From contig JALSJU010000061.1 of NCBI GenBank assembly GCA_026989145.1, positions 1-63,672 on the forward strand: a DNA stretch of 63,672 nt. Reading direction: 5' to 3'. Source of the stretch: Thiotrichaceae bacterium (lineage in GTDB: Bacteria; Pseudomonadota; Gammaproteobacteria; Thiotrichales; Thiotrichaceae). Position numbers and translations under genes: made by a program. Under the pieces are notes generated by a model that made no database searches, was not told the origin of the DNA, and saw only the letters and a list, made by a program, of their open reading frames with translations. How positions within the stretch are numbered: position 1 is the first letter of the stretch; each line of letters starts with the position of its first letter. Below are positions 1-57,897 of the stretch, piece by piece.

Positions 1-758
1 CAGATGCAGGCGTGATAATTTTTGATGCTTTAGGCACACCATCATTGGCACAAAAACTCATCAATAAAATTCGTGAAATTACGGATAAACCCATTATTAA
101 AGTATTTGTTAGTCATTACCATGCTGACCATATTTATGGCTTGCAGGTATTTAAAGAGTTAGGTGCTGAAATTATTGCGCCTGCCGGTGTGTATGAATAT
201 CTCGACTCAGAAGTCGCTGCTAACAGGCTTGAAGAACGACAACTCACACTCGACCCTTGGGTGAATAATAAAACGCATCTGGTTACACCTGATAAAGTGA
301 TTGATAAATTAACAAAAATGAAAGTAGGTAATATTGAACTCACAATTAATGTGATGGGGTCTGCACATTCAGAAGGTGATATGACTCTTTACGTCGAAAA
401 TGACCGAGTGTTATTTACCGGCGATATCATTTTTGAAGGACGTGTGCCTTTTATTGGTAGTGATAATACCAAGCACTGGCTAGAAAGTTTAAAGGAAATA
501 GAAACCCGGAAACTGCATGCGCTTGTTCCAGGGCACGGAGCGCTGGCAAAAGACCCAATGAAGGCAATTAAACTAACCCGAACCTATCTCGCTTTCCTAC
601 GCGATAAAATGGGTGTGGCAGTCGAAGCAATGACAGATTTTGATGAAGCCTATAAGGCAGTAGACTGGTCTGATTACAAAAACCTACCTGCTTTTGAAGC
701 AGCTAACCGCAAAAATGCGTTTCAGGTGTATCTGTCTATGGAAAATGAAAGTCTATGA
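1..758 (+). CDS. MBL-fold metallo-hydrolase, SoxH-like (5' end outside window)
   Basis: Predicted zinc hydrolase of the metallo-beta-lactamase superfamily. The frame is open to the left edge, and the residues before the first possible start (GTG at 12) read DAGVIIFDALGTPS, typical of the interior of SoxH and quinoprotein-relay metallohydrolases, so the gene begins upstream. The metal-binding H-x-H-x-D-H motif (HYHADH) is at 114-131. Further ligands are expected in SAHSEGDM, in FTGD, and in the histidine of LVPGHG. The fold is certain. The substrate is unknown; the closest resemblance is to hydrolases found near sulfur-oxidation or PQQ-dehydrogenase genes, which is an inference. rraA follows after 32 bp on the same strand. 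Confidence 0.8.
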   Translation, partial: DAGVIIFDALGTPSLAQKLINKIREITDKPIIKVFVSHYHADHIYGLQVFKELGAEIIAPAGVYEYLDSEVAANRLEERQLTLDPWVNNKTHLVTPDKVIDKLTKMKVGNIELTINVMGSAHSEGDMTLYVENDRVLFTGDIIFEGRVPFIGSDNTKHWLESLKEIETRKLHALVPGHGALAKDPMKAIKLTRTYLAFLRDKMGVAVEAMTDFDEAYKAVDWSDYKNLPAFEAANRKNAFQVYLSMENESL

Positions 759-47403: not shown

Positions 47404-48096
47404 ATGTTTGACGCAATCACATTGCAAAACGCATCAGAAACGACCAATATTGCGACACTTGTATTTACTATTTTGTTGTCATTTATTTTGTCATCAAGTA
47501 TTGCGTTTGTGTATCAAAAAACGTTCCGAGGAACCTTGTATTCTCGGAATTATGTACAAACCATTATTCTAATTTCTATCATAGTAACGATTATTCTGCA
47601 GGCTATTGGTGATAGCTTTGCACGTGGGCTTGGTGTTATGGCGGCTATGACGATTATTCGTTTTAGAAATAACCTTAAAGACCCGCGTGACTTATTATTT
47701 ATTTTTGCCTCGCTTGCGGTAGGTGTCTCTTGTGGCACATATTCCTTTGGTATAGCCATTATTGGCACCTTTGGATTTTTATTTGCTGTTATTATTTTAT
47801 ACTTCTCACCCTTAGGCTTACAAAATGATTTTGATGGAATGTTGAAGTTTAGCCTGCCCGCTGATGGCACGGACCCTTCAAAATTAAAGAAATTTTTGGC
47901 TAAATATTGCCAGCATACTTCGCTAATGGATTTAAAAGATGAGGGTGATGATGAGCTTTCCCAGTTGGCCTATAGCTATCATATCCGTTTAAAACAGGGG
48001 GTGTCGTATGAAGGTTTCATGGCTGAATTAAAACGCTTAGCAGGGATTAAAAATATTCAAATAAAAATGATTGGTGCTGCGGTGAAGAATAAATGA
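47404..48096 (+). CDS. DUF4956 membrane protein
   Basis: 230 residues. About four membrane segments (residues about 17-39, 50-70, and two within 95-135) surround the DUF4956 signature MAAMTIIRFRNNLKDPRDLLFIFASLAVGVSCG. A soluble C-terminal domain of about 90 residues follows, ending with an alpha/beta pattern (ELKRLAGIKNIQIKMIG). Family function is unknown; in other genomes it is often next to a VTC polyphosphate polymerase-like gene and CotH, neither of which is here. Its stop overlaps the next start by 4 bases (ATGA), showing translational coupling with the adaptor. It is the first gene of a three-gene operon. Confidence 0.85.
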   Translation: MFDAITLQNASETTNIATLVFTILLSFILSSSIAFVYQKTFRGTLYSRNYVQTIILISIIVTIILQAIGDSFARGLGVMAAMTIIRFRNNLKDPRDLLFIFASLAVGVSCGTYSFGIAIIGTFGFLFAVIILYFSPLGLQNDFDGMLKFSLPADGTDPSKLKKFLAKYCQHTSLMDLKDEGDDELSQLAYSYHIRLKQGVSYEGFMAELKRLAGIKNIQIKMIGAAVKNK

Positions 48097-49178
48097 AAAA
48101 AGTAGTTATTCCAATTGCATTATTACTTGCCCTGTTGGGAATGTTTTTTCTAACCTCAAGCTTGCAACAAAGCACCACTTACTTCTATGGAATCACAGAA
48201 AACAAAGAACAATCTGTGAGCTTTCAAGATCCTGTTGTTGTTACAGAGATAAAAGTAATTGAAGGTCAGATCGTAGAAAAAGGCACAATATTACTTAGTG
48301 CTAAACGTGACGAGTTGAGTGTTGAACAAGATAAATTTAATAGCCAATTGGATGCATTGAATGCTCAGCAGCACGAGGAAAAAGCCAAATTTAATGCACA
48401 AATAAATGTATTAAGGGTTCAACGCAAGGCTGAAATTGACCAAATTGGCGTACAAATCCTACAGTTTCAAACAAAGCGTCAGCTAAACAATAAATTATTT
48501 GAAAGTATTACCGGTCGTGCACCTGAAAAAATATCAGGTGCAAATATGCTACAGCAGCAGGTGAAGGCATTACAAATTAAACGAAATTCGGTTTATCGGT
48601 CTTTTCAAGCTCAAATTGATAGTCTGGTAGCGCAGCGAAACGCGAGTAAACAACCCGTATTTATCCAAAAAGAGCAAATAAAAAAGCGTCTAAACGAGGT
48701 TAATCGTCAAGCAAAAGAGCTTACCATTCGTGCAGATTTTTCGGGAAGGATTGGCAGTATTAATATTAAGCCCAGCGAAAAAATCCCCGCTTTTCAAAGC
48801 ATATTGACGGTTCATGGTTTATATCCTAAGACTGCAAAAGGTTATATTTTAGAAACGGTGGCTAATGATGTTCATATAGGCCAAACTTTATGGATTAGTT
48901 CATCGAATGGGCATAAAAGTGAAGTAATTAAAGGTGAAGTAGAAAGCTTAGGCAACAGAATAGTAGAATACCCTGACAGGTTAAAGAAAAATCAGGCAAT
49001 TAAGTCGTGGGGGCGTGAAGTTAATATTCGATTACCCTCAAATAATACCTTATTGCTTGGTGAAAAAGTCCAAATTAGTTTCTCGGTGCCATCAGATAAA
49101 GGCATAACATTTTTTAGAAAACTAAAAGAGCAGAGTTTCATCGGCACCTTGATCAATCAGAGTGCTAAAGTGGACTAA
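48093..49178 (+). CDS. HlyD-type periplasmic adaptor (membrane fusion protein)
   Basis: 361 residues with an N-terminal membrane anchor (VIPIALLLALLGMFFLTSSL). The two lipoyl half-motifs flank a coiled-coil hairpin: VTEIKVIEGQIVEKGTILL before it, and LTIRADFSGRIGSINIKPSE after it. A C-terminal beta barrel follows. Adaptors of this type bridge an inner-membrane pump and a TolC-like channel. No ABC, RND or MFS pump is encoded alongside; the coupled gene is DUF4956 upstream. It starts inside the DUF4956 stop codon and ends 1 bp before the next gene. Confidence 0.85.
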   Translation: MKKVVIPIALLLALLGMFFLTSSLQQSTTYFYGITENKEQSVSFQDPVVVTEIKVIEGQIVEKGTILLSAKRDELSVEQDKFNSQLDALNAQQHEEKAKFNAQINVLRVQRKAEIDQIGVQILQFQTKRQLNNKLFESITGRAPEKISGANMLQQQVKALQIKRNSVYRSFQAQIDSLVAQRNASKQPVFIQKEQIKKRLNEVNRQAKELTIRADFSGRIGSINIKPSEKIPAFQSILTVHGLYPKTAKGYILETVANDVHIGQTLWISSSNGHKSEVIKGEVESLGNRIVEYPDRLKKNQAIKSWGREVNIRLPSNNTLLLGEKVQISFSVPSDKGITFFRKLKEQSFIGTLINQSAKVD

Positions 49179-49179
49179 T

Positions 49180-50418
49180 ATGAATATGACTTTCTTTAAA
49201 GCTAACCTTATTAGCGCATTCAGTATTGTGGTATTTAGTAGCTCTCTTTTTGCAAATAATTATGAAAATAATGCAAATGCACTATTAAAAACGACAATAG
49301 TTAATGCGCAAAATATCTTTTCTCATTCACAACTAGAACCTATTAATACTGATTTGAGTGGTTTAGATGCTTGGATTGATAAGTCAGAGGTAAAGTGGGG
49401 TAATAGAGACCTATCCAACTTTGAAGATCAAAAAATAAGCTACGAATTGCAGTTTAAAAATCAGCAACAAATAAAGGCTGAGCAAGCACTCCTCAATATA
49501 GGTCAGAACAAAGTAGCGCTTAAACAAACTGGCTATTTAGAAAAACAGCTACTCTATAAGTATAAAATGTTGATAGATGCTATTGAGCAACGCAAGCAGC
49601 AAGGTATATTGCAGCAACAGCATGCTTTAGCTCAGGGTGAACTAAATAGTTGGAAGTTAAAAATTAATAGCGATGACTTTCGTGCTGATAAACTCCAGCA
49701 AGCAGACTTAACGCTAGATAATATATGGGGTGAAATGTTACAAAATGGCGCCCGAAATGAACAGTTAAAGCGGCAAGGTATATATCAGCAGAACTTTTCT
49801 CATGCGAGACAGGCGATACCGACAATCAGACAAACATTAACAACTGTAGACAATATTATCCAAACGGGTCAGTATCAACAGCATAATCTTCGCATTCAAG
49901 CTGCTGAGCTTGGAATATACCTTGCAAATAAGGAAAGGCAACGCTCTGCAGCACAGAAAAACCTATCATTGAAATCTTTTAAAGTTGAATATGATAATAA
50001 AGATCGGGATTTTGGTGTATCAGTGGGAATCAAAATTCCAGTTACAAAAAATAGCTTTGAACGTTTAAAAGAAAAACAAGCGCTACATTTTAAGCAACTA
50101 GGTGTGCAGAATATACGCTTGGAGATTGCTGGTCAGCTGAGCGAAAAGCGTAATCAATTAGTTCAACTGAGTAACCTTTGGGAGACTAATCAAAAACTAC
50201 TTCAGAAAATTGAAATAAGGATGTCGCGTTTAGTGAAGACCCCAAATATTGAATTACAGTCTGCTTTAAGCAAGCAAAAAATAAAGCTTGTAGATCGTAA
50301 TAATAGTATTGAAGTTAATGCCTTACGAGTCTATGTTAGCTTTTTAAAGGAGGCTGGGATGCTAGCCTCTAAACCTTATAGAAACTGGCTCCAAGTTGGA
50401 ACTCCAGTACTGTTTTAA
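49180..50418 (+). CDS. TolC-like outer-membrane efflux protein
   Basis: 412 residues. A signal peptide (FFKANLISAFSIVVFSSSLFA) is followed by long helical segments rich in Gln, Leu, Lys and Asn, repeated twice. The arrangement with short strand-like pieces (KSFKVEYDNKDRDFGVSVGIKIPV) fits the OEP/TolC fold. Identity is low, so the assignment rests on shape and context. The start at 49180 follows GTGGA. It is the last gene of the DUF4956-HlyD-TolC operon; a hairpin after it may end the transcript. Confidence 0.68.
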   Translation: MNMTFFKANLISAFSIVVFSSSLFANNYENNANALLKTTIVNAQNIFSHSQLEPINTDLSGLDAWIDKSEVKWGNRDLSNFEDQKISYELQFKNQQQIKAEQALLNIGQNKVALKQTGYLEKQLLYKYKMLIDAIEQRKQQGILQQQHALAQGELNSWKLKINSDDFRADKLQQADLTLDNIWGEMLQNGARNEQLKRQGIYQQNFSHARQAIPTIRQTLTTVDNIIQTGQYQQHNLRIQAAELGIYLANKERQRSAAQKNLSLKSFKVEYDNKDRDFGVSVGIKIPVTKNSFERLKEKQALHFKQLGVQNIRLEIAGQLSEKRNQLVQLSNLWETNQKLLQKIEIRMSRLVKTPNIELQSALSKQKIKLVDRNNSIEVNALRVYVSFLKEAGMLASKPYRNWLQVGTPVLF

Positions 50419-53266: not shown

Positions 53267-54640
53267 ATGAATCACTTTAAAAGGCTGTCATCCTTAAGTA
53301 TCTTCATCGTAGCCACGCTACCTTTTGTCTTAAATGCAGAGATTGCTAGCTTAGATACGGGCATAGCAAAGCTTGAAGAGGTCGTTGATTATCAAATTCT
53401 GGATGGCCAAATCGAAGCTGTTAATAAAAGTACTGTGTCAGCACAGACGGCAGGTGTGATTAGTAAGTTAGGTTATGATATTGGTGATACGGTTAAAAAA
53501 GGGGGGTTAATAGCGCGAATCTCTTCTCAAAATCAGAAGTCAGGTGTGTTAGAAGCTAAAGCAGGCGTTGGTCAGGCGAAGGCTTCAGTAAGTGGCGCTA
53601 ACGCTTCCATTAGCGGTGCAGTCGCTAGTATGAATGAGGCAAAGGCAACGATTGCACGTTCAGCAGCAGCTATCGCGCAAGCTAAAGCGTCAGCTAAAGA
53701 GGCACAAGCAAATTATGCCGCTGCACGTTCTGAGTTTGATCGAGTTAAGGGTTTGTATGCAAAACGTATTTTAACAAAATCTCAATTCGAACAAGCTGAA
53801 GCCACCATGCGTTCAGCTTTAGCTCGTGTTGAGTCAGCTAAGGCGAGCCAACAGTCAGCAGAGGCGAGTCGAGTAGCAGCAGTATCACGATTAAACTCTG
53901 CAAAAGCTGCTTTAACCTCATCAAAAGCTAACCTAGCTTCAGCTAGAGCAGCTTTGAGTTCTTCTAAAGCAAATCTTTCAAAAGCAGGTCAACAACTTGG
54001 CTACACCGAAATCATTGCCCCCTATAGTGGTATTGTGGTTGAGCGTCACGTTGAACTAGGGGAGGTTGTATCACCAGGAACTCCTATTATGACGGGTATT
54101 TCGTTGCAAGAAATGCGTGCTGTTGCGAACATCCCGCAGCGGTTATTTAATAAAATCCGCGAGCATAAATCTGCAAAGCTTTTTGTTGATGGTGATAATG
54201 TTGGTTTTCCTACCACTGATTTGACATTCTTCCCGTATGCTGACCCATTAACCAATGCTTTTAAAGTTCGATTAAATTTAAACTCTTCTGTTAAAGGACT
54301 ATTTCCAGGTATGTTTGTTAAAATAGGCTTGGAAGTTGGTAAAGAAAAACATTTGGTGGTACCAACAACAGCAATTGCTTATCGAAGTGAGGTGACAGGG
54401 ATTTATGTAATTGATGCAAAGGGTGTGCCTTCAATGCGTCAAGTGAAGCTAGGGTCTGAGACTGGCGATGGCAAAATACGTATTCTTGCGGGTTTAAATG
54501 AAGGCGAAACCATCGCGCTTGACCCCGTTCATGCTGCTGTATATTTGAAAGAACAGCATGAGAAAAATAATACACAGGAAAGCATCGAAGAGAACTCCGC
54601 AGAAGAGGCCGCTGTTGAAAAGCAAGGAGAAGAAAAATGA
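53267..54640 (+). CDS. RND efflux adaptor (membrane fusion protein)
   Basis: 457 residues with a signal peptide ending near LNA. A lipoyl half (GVISKLGYDIGDTVKKGGLIARI) is followed by an unusually long Ala/Ser/Lys hairpin of about 170 residues, with repeated near-heptads such as SKANLASARAALSS. The second half-motif is QLGYTEIIAPYSGIVVERHVELGEVVSPG. Then come the beta-barrel and proximal domains and an acidic tail. It overlaps the pump gene by 4 bases, indicating translational coupling. No outer-membrane gene is in the operon, so it may share a TolC encoded elsewhere. Confidence 0.9.
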   Translation: MNHFKRLSSLSIFIVATLPFVLNAEIASLDTGIAKLEEVVDYQILDGQIEAVNKSTVSAQTAGVISKLGYDIGDTVKKGGLIARISSQNQKSGVLEAKAGVGQAKASVSGANASISGAVASMNEAKATIARSAAAIAQAKASAKEAQANYAAARSEFDRVKGLYAKRILTKSQFEQAEATMRSALARVESAKASQQSAEASRVAAVSRLNSAKAALTSSKANLASARAALSSSKANLSKAGQQLGYTEIIAPYSGIVVERHVELGEVVSPGTPIMTGISLQEMRAVANIPQRLFNKIREHKSAKLFVDGDNVGFPTTDLTFFPYADPLTNAFKVRLNLNSSVKGLFPGMFVKIGLEVGKEKHLVVPTTAIAYRSEVTGIYVIDAKGVPSMRQVKLGSETGDGKIRILAGLNEGETIALDPVHAAVYLKEQHEKNNTQESIEENSAEEAAVEKQGEEK

Positions 54641-57600
54641 GCAGCCAACACGATGAGCCAAAGTTAGGCATATCAGGAGCGATAGCAAAAAAGTTTTTAT
54701 TAACTGAAATTACTCCGTTAATTGCATTAGTTGCACTATTGTTGGGTTTTTTTGCAGTGATGGTTACACCTCGCGAAGAAGATCCCCAGATCAATGTTAC
54801 TTTTGCTAATATCTTTATCCCTTTTCCTGGTGCTAGTGCAAAAGATGTAGAAAATTTAGTCAGTACACCTGCCGAACAAGTATTGTCTGAAATATCTGGC
54901 ATTAAACATATCTACTCAACCTCAATGCCAGGGATGTCCTTAATCACTGTGCAGTACAAAGTGGGGCTAAATCGTACGGAAGCTCTGGTGCGCTTATATA
55001 ATAAGGTTGCCTCAAACCAAGATTGGTTGCCACAAAAGCTTGGTGTAGGTTATCCCTTAATCAAGCCGAAAGGAATTGATGATGTACCGATTGTAACCTT
55101 GACCCTATGGACAGAAGATGAAGCGCGTGGTGGTTATGAGCTTTCCCAAGTAGCTCATGCTATTGAGTCTGAAATCAAGCGTGTTCCTGGTACACGTGAT
55201 GTATATACCGTGGGTTCTAGTAAGCGTGTAATGCATGTATTAATAGATAGTACAAAGTTGGCAGGTTACAACATTGCTTTAGATGATTTACGAAATTCTT
55301 TAATGGCAAGTAGTGCCGCAACGGATGCAGTATCTCTTGTTGATAATAATGAAGAAATTCAGGTTGTATCTGGTACTTTTCTGAGTAATGAAGATGATGT
55401 CAGTGATCTTGTTGTGGGTGTATTTAACGGTAAGCCCATTTTCTTACGAGATGTGGCAACGGTTCGCCAAGGTGCAGATTCAGCTGAAAGTTACGTGAGC
55501 TTTGGTACCACTAAAGGTGCTGAGCATATTGGTTTAAAGCCTGGAATTAGCTCACCAGCTGTAACTATCGCTATTGCAAAGCAACCTAGCATCAATGCAG
55601 TTGAAGTCTCTGATAACGTGATTAAGCGGATTGAACAACTAAAAGGTACTTTTATTCCTGATGGCGTTAATGTATCGGTAACACGTAACTATGGTGCTAC
55701 TGCGAAAGCAAAGTCAGATAAATTAATCCATAAATTAATCATTGAAACGATTGCAGTATCGATTCTAATTTGGATAGCGCTTGGCTTACGCGAGGCATTT
55801 ATCGTGGGTACAGCCGTTGTTATAACACTAGCTTTAACCTTATTTGCCTCATGGGCTTATGGTTTTACGTTGAACCGAGTTTCCTTATTTGCGTTGATTT
55901 TTTCGATTGGAATATTGGTTGATGATGCGATAGTGGTGGTCGAAAATATTCACCGGCATATGGTGTTAGGAGGGAGAAAGCTGGTAGATGCAATCCCGAT
56001 AGCTGTTGATGAAGTAGGCGGGCCAACAATTCTAGCAACTTTTGCTGTTATCGCTGCCTTGCTACCAATGGCATTTGTCACCGGTTTGATGGGGCCGTAT
56101 ATGAGCCCAATACCTATTAATGCCAGTATGGGAATGCTGCTATCATTAGGGGTGGCCTATGTTATTACTCCTTGGATGACCAACAAGGTACTAGGCAATG
56201 TGGATTTTAGCAAACATCATCATGATGAAACGGAAGAGACTAAAACCAAGCGGTTCTTTAATAAAGTTTTAGGTCCTTTCTTAGGTGATCGGGGTGGCTT
56301 ATGGCGTTCATTGTTGCTTTGGGTGGCGATCCCACTTTTGATAGCAGCGTCAGTTTCAATGGCGTTTCCGTTTAAAGCGGTTATTTTAAAAATGTTGCCA
56401 TTTGATAATAAATCAGAATTTCAAATTGTATTAGATATGCCAGAAGGGACAACCTTAGAGCAAACCTCTCGAGTGTTAAATGAGCTTTCTTATAAAATTA
56501 AAGATGTAGAAGAAATTAGCGATTATCAAATTTACGCAGGCACAGCAGCCCCGATAAATTTTAACGGTCTAGTTCGTCAATACTACCTTCGCAAAGGTTC
56601 TAACGTGGGTGATATTCAAGTTAACCTTATTGATAAGCATGACCGTGATCGTAAAAGCCATGAGATTGCCCAAGCGGTTCGCTTGATGTTAAAAGATATT
56701 GCCATTAAGCATAATGCTAATGTAAAGGTTGTCGAGGTACCTCCAGGCCCTCCTGTGATGTCACCTATAGTGGCCGAGATTTATGGTTTAGATCATGATG
56801 GTCAAATAAAAGTAGCTAAGAAAGTACGTGAACTCTATGAACAAACGCCGAATATAGCGGATGTCGATGATAGCGCAGAGGCACAACAAAAACGCTTACT
56901 CATTAAGGTTGATCGTCAAAAAGCTGCAATACTGGGAGTCTCTCAACAGCTTATTACACAATCGATTAGTACGGTATTAGGTGGGGAAGATGTGGTGTAC
57001 TTACATGGCAAAAACCTTAAGTATGCTGTTCCTATTCGTTTAGAGTTCCCTGTTGCAAACAAAGATAAAATAGAGTCTGTTTTAGCCTTACGGGTGCGTA
57101 GCCGTGCAGGGGCGTTAATACCCATGTCTGAGCTAGTAGAGATCAAAGAAAACAAACGTGAATACTCAATTAATCATAAGGACTTATTACCAGTTGTATA
57201 TGTAATGGGTGACATGATTGGTGATATTGATAGTCCTTTATATGGCATGTTTGATATATCAGCAGCGATAGAAGATTTACCGTTGGAAGAGTATGGCAGA
57301 GAGGTAAAACAACACTACTTTAGCCCACCAGATGACCCTTACTTTTTCGGTATAAAGTGGGATGGCGAATGGCAGATTACCTTTGAAACATTCCGTGATA
57401 TGGGTATCGCTTATAGTGTTGGTATGCTGATTATTTTCTTATTAATTGTTGCTCAATTCCGCTCTTATATGGTGCCGTTAGTAATTATGTCGCCGATTCC
57501 GCTAACCATTATTGGCGTATTACCAGCCCATTGGTTAATGGGGCAGCAGTTTACGGCAACATCAATGATCGGAATGATAGCTTTGGCGGGTATTATTGTT

Positions 57601-57897
57601 CGAAACTCGATTTTGTTGGTGGATTTTATCAATGAGCAATTAAGGTCAGGAGTGGAATTAAAAGAGGCGATTATAAATTCCAGTGCGGTACGTGCTATGC
57701 CCATTATATTGACGGCAATAGCAGCGATGCTGGGTGCATTCTTTATTATTGATGATCCTATCTTTGGTGGTTTAGCTATTGCACTTATTTCTGGTATTTT
57801 GGTGTCTACTATGTTGACCTTGGTAGTGATACCTATTCTTTATTATATGTACCTGCGTAAGCGAGTACATTTGATAATTGGTGAGTCGCAAAGCTAG
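54637..57897 (+). CDS. RND-family efflux pump permease
   Basis: 1086 residues with the twelve-helix RND plan. The proton-relay Asp pair is in FSIGILVDDAIVVVENIHRH. ISSPAVTIAIAKQPSINAVEVSDNVI and the C-terminal FTATSMIGMIALAGIIVRNSILLVDFINE are typical. The N-terminus (TPREEDPQINVTFANIFIPFPGASAKDVENLVSTPAEQ) is like the AcrB-related group with distant relation to MexB. Substrates are unknown. A strong bidirectional terminator follows. Confidence 0.92.
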   Translation: MSSQHDEPKLGISGAIAKKFLLTEITPLIALVALLLGFFAVMVTPREEDPQINVTFANIFIPFPGASAKDVENLVSTPAEQVLSEISGIKHIYSTSMPGMSLITVQYKVGLNRTEALVRLYNKVASNQDWLPQKLGVGYPLIKPKGIDDVPIVTLTLWTEDEARGGYELSQVAHAIESEIKRVPGTRDVYTVGSSKRVMHVLIDSTKLAGYNIALDDLRNSLMASSAATDAVSLVDNNEEIQVVSGTFLSNEDDVSDLVVGVFNGKPIFLRDVATVRQGADSAESYVSFGTTKGAEHIGLKPGISSPAVTIAIAKQPSINAVEVSDNVIKRIEQLKGTFIPDGVNVSVTRNYGATAKAKSDKLIHKLIIETIAVSILIWIALGLREAFIVGTAVVITLALTLFASWAYGFTLNRVSLFALIFSIGILVDDAIVVVENIHRHMVLGGRKLVDAIPIAVDEVGGPTILATFAVIAALLPMAFVTGLMGPYMSPIPINASMGMLLSLGVAYVITPWMTNKVLGNVDFSKHHHDETEETKTKRFFNKVLGPFLGDRGGLWRSLLLWVAIPLLIAASVSMAFPFKAVILKMLPFDNKSEFQIVLDMPEGTTLEQTSRVLNELSYKIKDVEEISDYQIYAGTAAPINFNGLVRQYYLRKGSNVGDIQVNLIDKHDRDRKSHEIAQAVRLMLKDIAIKHNANVKVVEVPPGPPVMSPIVAEIYGLDHDGQIKVAKKVRELYEQTPNIADVDDSAEAQQKRLLIKVDRQKAAILGVSQQLITQSISTVLGGEDVVYLHGKNLKYAVPIRLEFPVANKDKIESVLALRVRSRAGALIPMSELVEIKENKREYSINHKDLLPVVYVMGDMIGDIDSPLYGMFDISAAIEDLPLEEYGREVKQHYFSPPDDPYFFGIKWDGEWQITFETFRDMGIAYSVGMLIIFLLIVAQFRSYMVPLVIMSPIPLTIIGVLPAHWLMGQQFTATSMIGMIALAGIIVRNSILLVDFINEQLRSGVELKEAIINSSAVRAMPIILTAIAAMLGAFFIIDDPIFGGLAIALISGILVSTMLTLVVIPILYYMYLRKRVHLIIGESQS

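Follow-up and report, generated by a model that had tools for sequence, protein, structure and literature searches.

Three adjacent genes in the 63,672-nucleotide stretch of Thiotrichaceae DNA analyzed here (the window) form a real, dedicated unit encoding a DUF4956 inner-membrane protein, a HlyD-type periplasmic adaptor, and a TolC-fold outer-membrane channel protein. In our preferred reading, to which we assign a probability of about 0.55, this trio serves as the conduit through which a synthase-dependent complex exports polyphosphate; polymerization by a VTC enzyme would replace a pump, and the genus of the window keeps the conduit without VTC. The reading draws on observed gene content, linkage, homology, folds, residue conservation, and VTC loss, from which we infer complex formation, cargo, direction, and energy coupling.

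The open reading frames proved to be packed on one strand exactly as in a preliminary description of this DNA (Table 1). The DUF4956 and adaptor genes overlap by 4 bases (ATGA), and the ATG of the TolC-like gene (49180) lies 1 base past the adaptor TAA, with an alternative GTG start at 49162, inside the adaptor gene. The adaptor carries a predicted N-terminal membrane anchor, and its best PDB match was EmrA (4tko, E = 2e-6). The TolC-like protein carries a predicted signal peptide and, in the window, had no match in the Pfam search, OEP included. We identify it as TolC-like because OEP was matched by 9 of 31 homologues, the AlphaFold model (31 homologues; pLDDT 85.0) has the TolC topology, with two beta hairpins set between long helices, and Foldseek matched this model to E. 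coli TolC (E = 3.6e-9). Sequence searches of the PDB with the DUF4956 and TolC-like profiles returned nothing firm. The trio has no ABC, RND, or MFS gene next to it, either in the window or elsewhere in the genus, and no common pump-type neighbor was seen among related loci. Two earlier statements, that no recognizable pump stands beside the trio and that DUF4956 is its only inner-membrane partner, are thus borne out.

Table 1. Positions of the trio genes and of the DUF4956 features discussed in the text.
Feature	Position	Strand	Details
DUF4956 inner-membrane protein	47404..48096	+	230 aa; PF16316, 45.2 bits (cut-off, 30.6)
HlyD/EmrA-type periplasmic adaptor	48093..49178	+	361 aa; HlyD_3, 32.7 bits (cut-off, 22.2)
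TolC-fold outer-membrane channel protein	49180..50418	+	412 aa; AlphaFold model, Foldseek match to TolC, and OEP matches of homologues
RFRNNLKDPRD, basic loop between helices 3 and 4 of DUF4956	47659..47691	+	codons 86-96
KMIGAAVKNK, last ten codons of DUF4956	48064..48093	+	site of the QEATV(D/E)L tail of relatives; motif absent
Five predicted membrane helices of DUF4956	residues ~16-40, 48-68, 72-88, 94-111, 115-134		AlphaFold model, pLDDT 83.6
ACT-like domain of DUF4956	residues ~143-222		ACT/ferredoxin-like domain matches; predicted to be cytoplasmic

Of 12 genomes in the genus, 4 carry DUF4956 and these 4 also carry the adaptor, always together with the TolC-like gene, and the genomic contexts of these four intact trios differ. 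A profile of the adaptor matched exactly 3 of 369 gammaproteobacterial genomes (E up to 1e-15), with DUF4956 adjacent in all three; 10 more genomes of this sample carry DUF4956 without a trio-type adaptor, about half of them with VTC and the others without. Between the window and the same-genus genome G004, dN/dS was 0.05 to 0.06 for DUF4956, 0.08 to 0.09 for the adaptor, and 0.20 to 0.27 for the TolC-like gene. All three genes are therefore under purifying selection, which rules out pseudogenes or a decaying locus. Because the trio is intact in four genomes, in differing contexts, and at such dN/dS values, its arrangement is not due to chance. An anti-phage defense function was rejected, as no PADLOC model matched, and plasmid carriage was dropped, since the plasmid matches were to distant DUF4956 proteins only.

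We scanned the genomes of 84,980 species with a DUF4956 alignment alone and classed the neighbors of the resulting 62 loci with purpose-built profiles. The adaptor was present at 57 of the 62 loci, the TolC-like gene at 53, VTC at 46, and all four genes at 43. Because the query alignment was drawn from DUF4956 proteins with a linked adaptor, the fractions apply to that branch and not to the DUF4956 family as a whole. Most of the VTC-less loci are cut off by a contig edge. Two gene orders were found, DUF4956-adaptor-TolC-VTC and adaptor-TolC-VTC-DUF4956. In two sister-genus genomes (G031 and G020) the operon runs on into VTC, and that of G031 also includes PHO4 and a phytase-like gene. Loci with adaptor and VTC came from Pseudomonadota, Campylobacterota, Nitrospirota, Thermodesulfobacteriota, Fibrobacterota, Spirochaetota, Sumerlaeota, and Planctomycetota (the last without a TolC-like gene), and Bacteroidota contributed one trio without VTC (L121); many source organisms are metagenome bins, and single taxon assignments may be wrong. 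Two Nitrospirales loci group with Gammaproteobacteria in the DUF4956 tree. At L090 (10681-12620), DUF4956, adaptor, and VTC genes overlap, with no TolC-like gene between them. At three loci of Methylophilaceae type (L127, L130, and L132), a DUF4956 gene from the adaptor-linked clade stands alone; its surroundings are conserved but include no adaptor, TolC-like gene, or VTC.

These linkages revise the initial picture of the trio. VTC had been described as missing, which is true of the window genome and wrong for the family. The trio had been taken for a new tripartite complex, and we do find a unit that is conserved and dedicated and has no classical pump; it does not, however, stand apart from the VTC-DUF4956 system. 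VTC is present at 46 of 62 loci, sometimes with phosphate-transport genes, and the unit is therefore better described as that system with an added envelope conduit. Either a pump gene conserved with the trio elsewhere or a failure of the three genes to be linked elsewhere had been named as evidence that would speak against the proposal. A conserved partner does exist, but it is a polymerase and not a pump, and the linkage of adaptor and TolC-like genes to DUF4956 is clear. Of the two suggested cargoes, an ion or a polymer, a polymer is the likelier.

The operon VTCs matched yeast Vtc4 (PDB 3g3q, E = 1.7e-15), and Vtc4 residues K200, R264, R266, K281, K294, R361, R373, E426, and K458 correspond to invariant residues in 28 of 28 operon VTCs, which are thus predicted to be polyphosphate polymerases. 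PHO4 phosphate transporters are linked at L012, L041, L084, L089, and L061, with a PhoU-like gene also at L089. A fused C-terminal domain of ~300 residues, with weak matches to phytase-like, SdiA-regulated, and DUF3616 beta-propellers, extends 32 of the adaptors (>600 aa; L040, L041, and L075-L131); at L094 and L096, a propeller of the same type is encoded by a separate divergent gene. A sequence search of the PDB with the propeller-domain profile yielded nothing firm. Judged from these genes, phosphate is the common theme of the complete operons.

In the AlphaFold model, DUF4956 has five membrane helices, not the approximately four initially proposed. The positive-inside rule, applied to the model, predicts that the basic loop at positions 86 to 96 and the ACT-like domain face the cytoplasm. 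R86, F87, R88, and K92 were invariant in 41 of 41 aligned DUF4956 proteins, and this conserved loop may be the entry for a polyanion. Foldseek and VIA-align searches of solved folds with the model returned matches mainly to the ACT-like domain. By hhalign, DUF4956 aligned over its full length with MgtC/YhiD (probability 96.6, E = 5.6e-10), in a comparison that included E. coli yhiD (L155:5256-5903); reversed, shuffled, and PHO4 controls reached a probability of at most 0.2. DUF4956 misses the Pfam MgtC cut-off (11.6 versus 31.4 bits). As a whole, it seems to represent a distant offshoot of the MgtC/SapB superfamily, sharing with YhiD the full-length alignment and, in the model, five membrane helices with an ACT-like domain, but differing in partners and likely role as well as falling below the Pfam cut-off. 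MgtC relatives are tied to ion and phosphate physiology, and the molecular function of MgtC is debated.

Searches with PF09359 and with the operon-VTC profile found no VTC in the window genome (G000) or in the same-genus genomes G001 and G006, all 97.7 to 100% complete. A copy hidden elsewhere in the window genome was ruled out, as both searches were empty (E up to 1 for the operon-VTC profile). In G004, VTC is confined to a separate PHO4-DUF4956-VTC-HlyD locus (L061:6136-10500) with a divergent DUF4956, a HlyD-type adaptor, and no TolC-like gene. PPK1 was missing from all six genus genomes searched, but each holds two or three genes for PPK2. Elsewhere in the window genome there are CotH genes (C116 and C40). 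The four genus members without VTC group together in the DUF4956 tree as a single supported clade that lies within the VTC-linked one, a placement indicating that the genus lost VTC secondarily.

The DUF4956 proteins bear traces of this loss. The QEATV(D/E)L tail occurs in 39 of 44 proteins linked to VTC, in 6 of 7 proteins from contigs that end early, and in none of 5 VTC-less proteins, the last set representing two independent lineages only. Of the sites conserved in VTC-linked DUF4956 proteins, those in the membrane core are kept at 96% by VTC-less proteins and at 97% by VTC-linked ones; the corresponding values are 71% and 98% for the cytoplasmic loops and 51% and 95% for the C-terminal domain. 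VTC-linked proteins of similar divergence keep 71 to 95% of the C-terminal sites; one VTC-linked outlier (L111) looks truncated. Because the sites lost along with VTC are cytoplasmic and not in the membrane, this pattern suggests that the tail and cytoplasmic loops of DUF4956 contact VTC, and the QEATVDL tail may dock it. It also suggests that the conduit function outlived VTC.

In the mechanism that we propose, a cytoplasmic VTC polymerase would make polyphosphate from ATP and feed the growing chain through MgtC-like DUF4956 by way of the basic mouth on its cytoplasmic side. From there, the HlyD-type adaptor and the TolC-fold channel would carry the chain across the periplasm and outer membrane. 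Because polymerization would supply the pushing force, an ABC, RND, or MFS pump would be dispensable. In the lineage of the window the motor is gone, and the conduit probably serves polyphosphate from another source (PPK2) or another anion; since both VTC and PPK1 are missing from the window genome, polyphosphate is put forward only conditionally as the cargo there. Also counting against the export-complex reading are the absence of a TolC-like gene from L090 and L061 and the lack of a consistent Pho box signal upstream of the operons, among which only L129 stands out (12 of 14 consensus positions).

Other explanations of the trio deserve consideration. The trio of the window lineage might have been repurposed to move an ion, a small anion, or another polymer, driven by a gradient or an unlinked enzyme. 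The absence of VTC from nearly complete genomes, the absence of PPK1, the altered C-terminus and cytoplasmic loops of a DUF4956 that remains, like its partners, under purifying selection, and the link of MgtC relatives to ion and phosphate physiology all fit such a change. Repurposing nevertheless seems to us rather unlikely, because DUF4956 has kept R86, R88, and K92 and is as well conserved at its membrane sites as its VTC-linked counterparts, which points to a similar cargo. More doubtful still is a periplasmic polyphosphate store or VTC anchor, with the TolC-like protein serving occasional release or uptake and phytase-like domains and PHO4 recovering phosphate. TolC-type channels are known to act as export ducts, and a TolC-like gene sits at 53 of 62 loci, in tight operons; on the other side stand its absence from L090 and L061 and the linkage of PHO4 importers, PhoU, and phytase-like propellers to the operon. 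We judge this explanation improbable.

Ordinary efflux was also considered, given that a pair of RND genes, for an adaptor of 457 aa and a pump of 1,086 aa, lies 2.8 kb downstream, past convergent genes (53267-57897), and includes the nearest pump to the trio. The adaptor and TolC-like protein would then serve this pump (54637-57897) or another, with DUF4956 as a bystander. The data already contradict this explanation, to which we give hardly any credence: the RND pump has an adaptor of its own, the trio's adaptor was found only beside DUF4956 (3 of 369 genomes), and the RND pair, although kept in the close relative G004, lies away from the trio in G001 and G006, which rules it out as the missing pump.

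The preferred reading, a polyphosphate conduit driven by VTC in complete operons, has parallels in known systems. In the yeast VTC complex, the synthesis of polyphosphate is coupled to its translocation, with basic residues lining the path and channel (PMC9911596), and a basic DUF4956 mouth facing the polymerase would recall that complex. The catalytic tunnel domains of complete operons and of the yeast vacuole complex (Vtc1/Vtc3/Vtc4) belong to one family and agree in their active-site residues; in our model, synthesis on the cytosolic side beside a basic membrane protein is a further shared feature. The operons differ in that the membrane part is MgtC-like DUF4956 instead of a Vtc1-type domain, an adaptor and outer-membrane channel are added, and the operon VTCs (~275 aa) are too short for SPX and membrane domains; the window genome, moreover, lacks any VTC. 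DUF4956 has been described next to Gram-positive pel operons, where it is an accessory gene, and in VTC-DUF4956-CotH clusters (PMC7112168). These clusters likewise link DUF4956 to a VTC polyphosphate-polymerase gene, but they have CotH where the trio has an adaptor and TolC-like gene, their DUF4956 proteins belong to distant branches, and no export role is known for them. EmrAB-TolC and HlyBD-TolC resemble the trio in adaptor (closest to EmrA in the PDB) and TolC fold, whereas the trio has DUF4956 as inner-membrane partner in place of an MFS, ABC, or RND pump. Synthase-dependent secretion of cellulose (Bcs), alginate, and Pel passes polymers over both membranes and the periplasm, driven by the polymerase without a separate pump. 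The likeness to our proposal lies in this principle; those systems use TPR and beta-barrel parts instead of HlyD- and TolC-type proteins, and what the operons export would be inorganic polyphosphate.

Individually, VTC polymerases, TolC-type conduits, and VTC-DUF4956-CotH clusters are already known. A search of mainly open-access journal papers found three that name DUF4956, none of them joining it with HlyD or TolC, and no account of the four-gene combination, of polyphosphate export via TolC, or of a dedicated bacterial polyphosphate exporter. Bacterial polyphosphate is commonly credited to PPK enzymes, and the VTC-linked channel genes of the relatives suggest an undescribed bacterial route to make and export it. 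Extended to its full scope, the proposal would be a widespread machine secreting polyphosphate through the whole Gram-negative envelope, with VTC as motor, DUF4956 as channel, and HlyD-TolC as duct, and with duct-only lineages working on phosphate polymers or anions; we hold this broader version tentatively, at somewhat less than an even chance. If true, it would make extracellular or periplasmic polyphosphate accessible at the gene level in Gram-negative bacteria, among them sulfur-oxidizing Thiotrichaceae, methanotrophs, and Campylobacterota, and DUF4956 would gain a role and a relation to MgtC. The VTC-less version is a natural separation test of conduit versus motor.

One recurrent neighborhood was seen around DUF4956 genes. 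In G001, the full trio sits after genes for a TsaB-like protein and a DinG-like helicase. Distant orphan DUF4956 genes of genus g6 lie directly after a TsaB-like gene at L013 (8065-9634, 9615-11597), L016 (2487-5946), and L018 (30-1476), and at L016 a DinG-like helicase gene also precedes the orphan.
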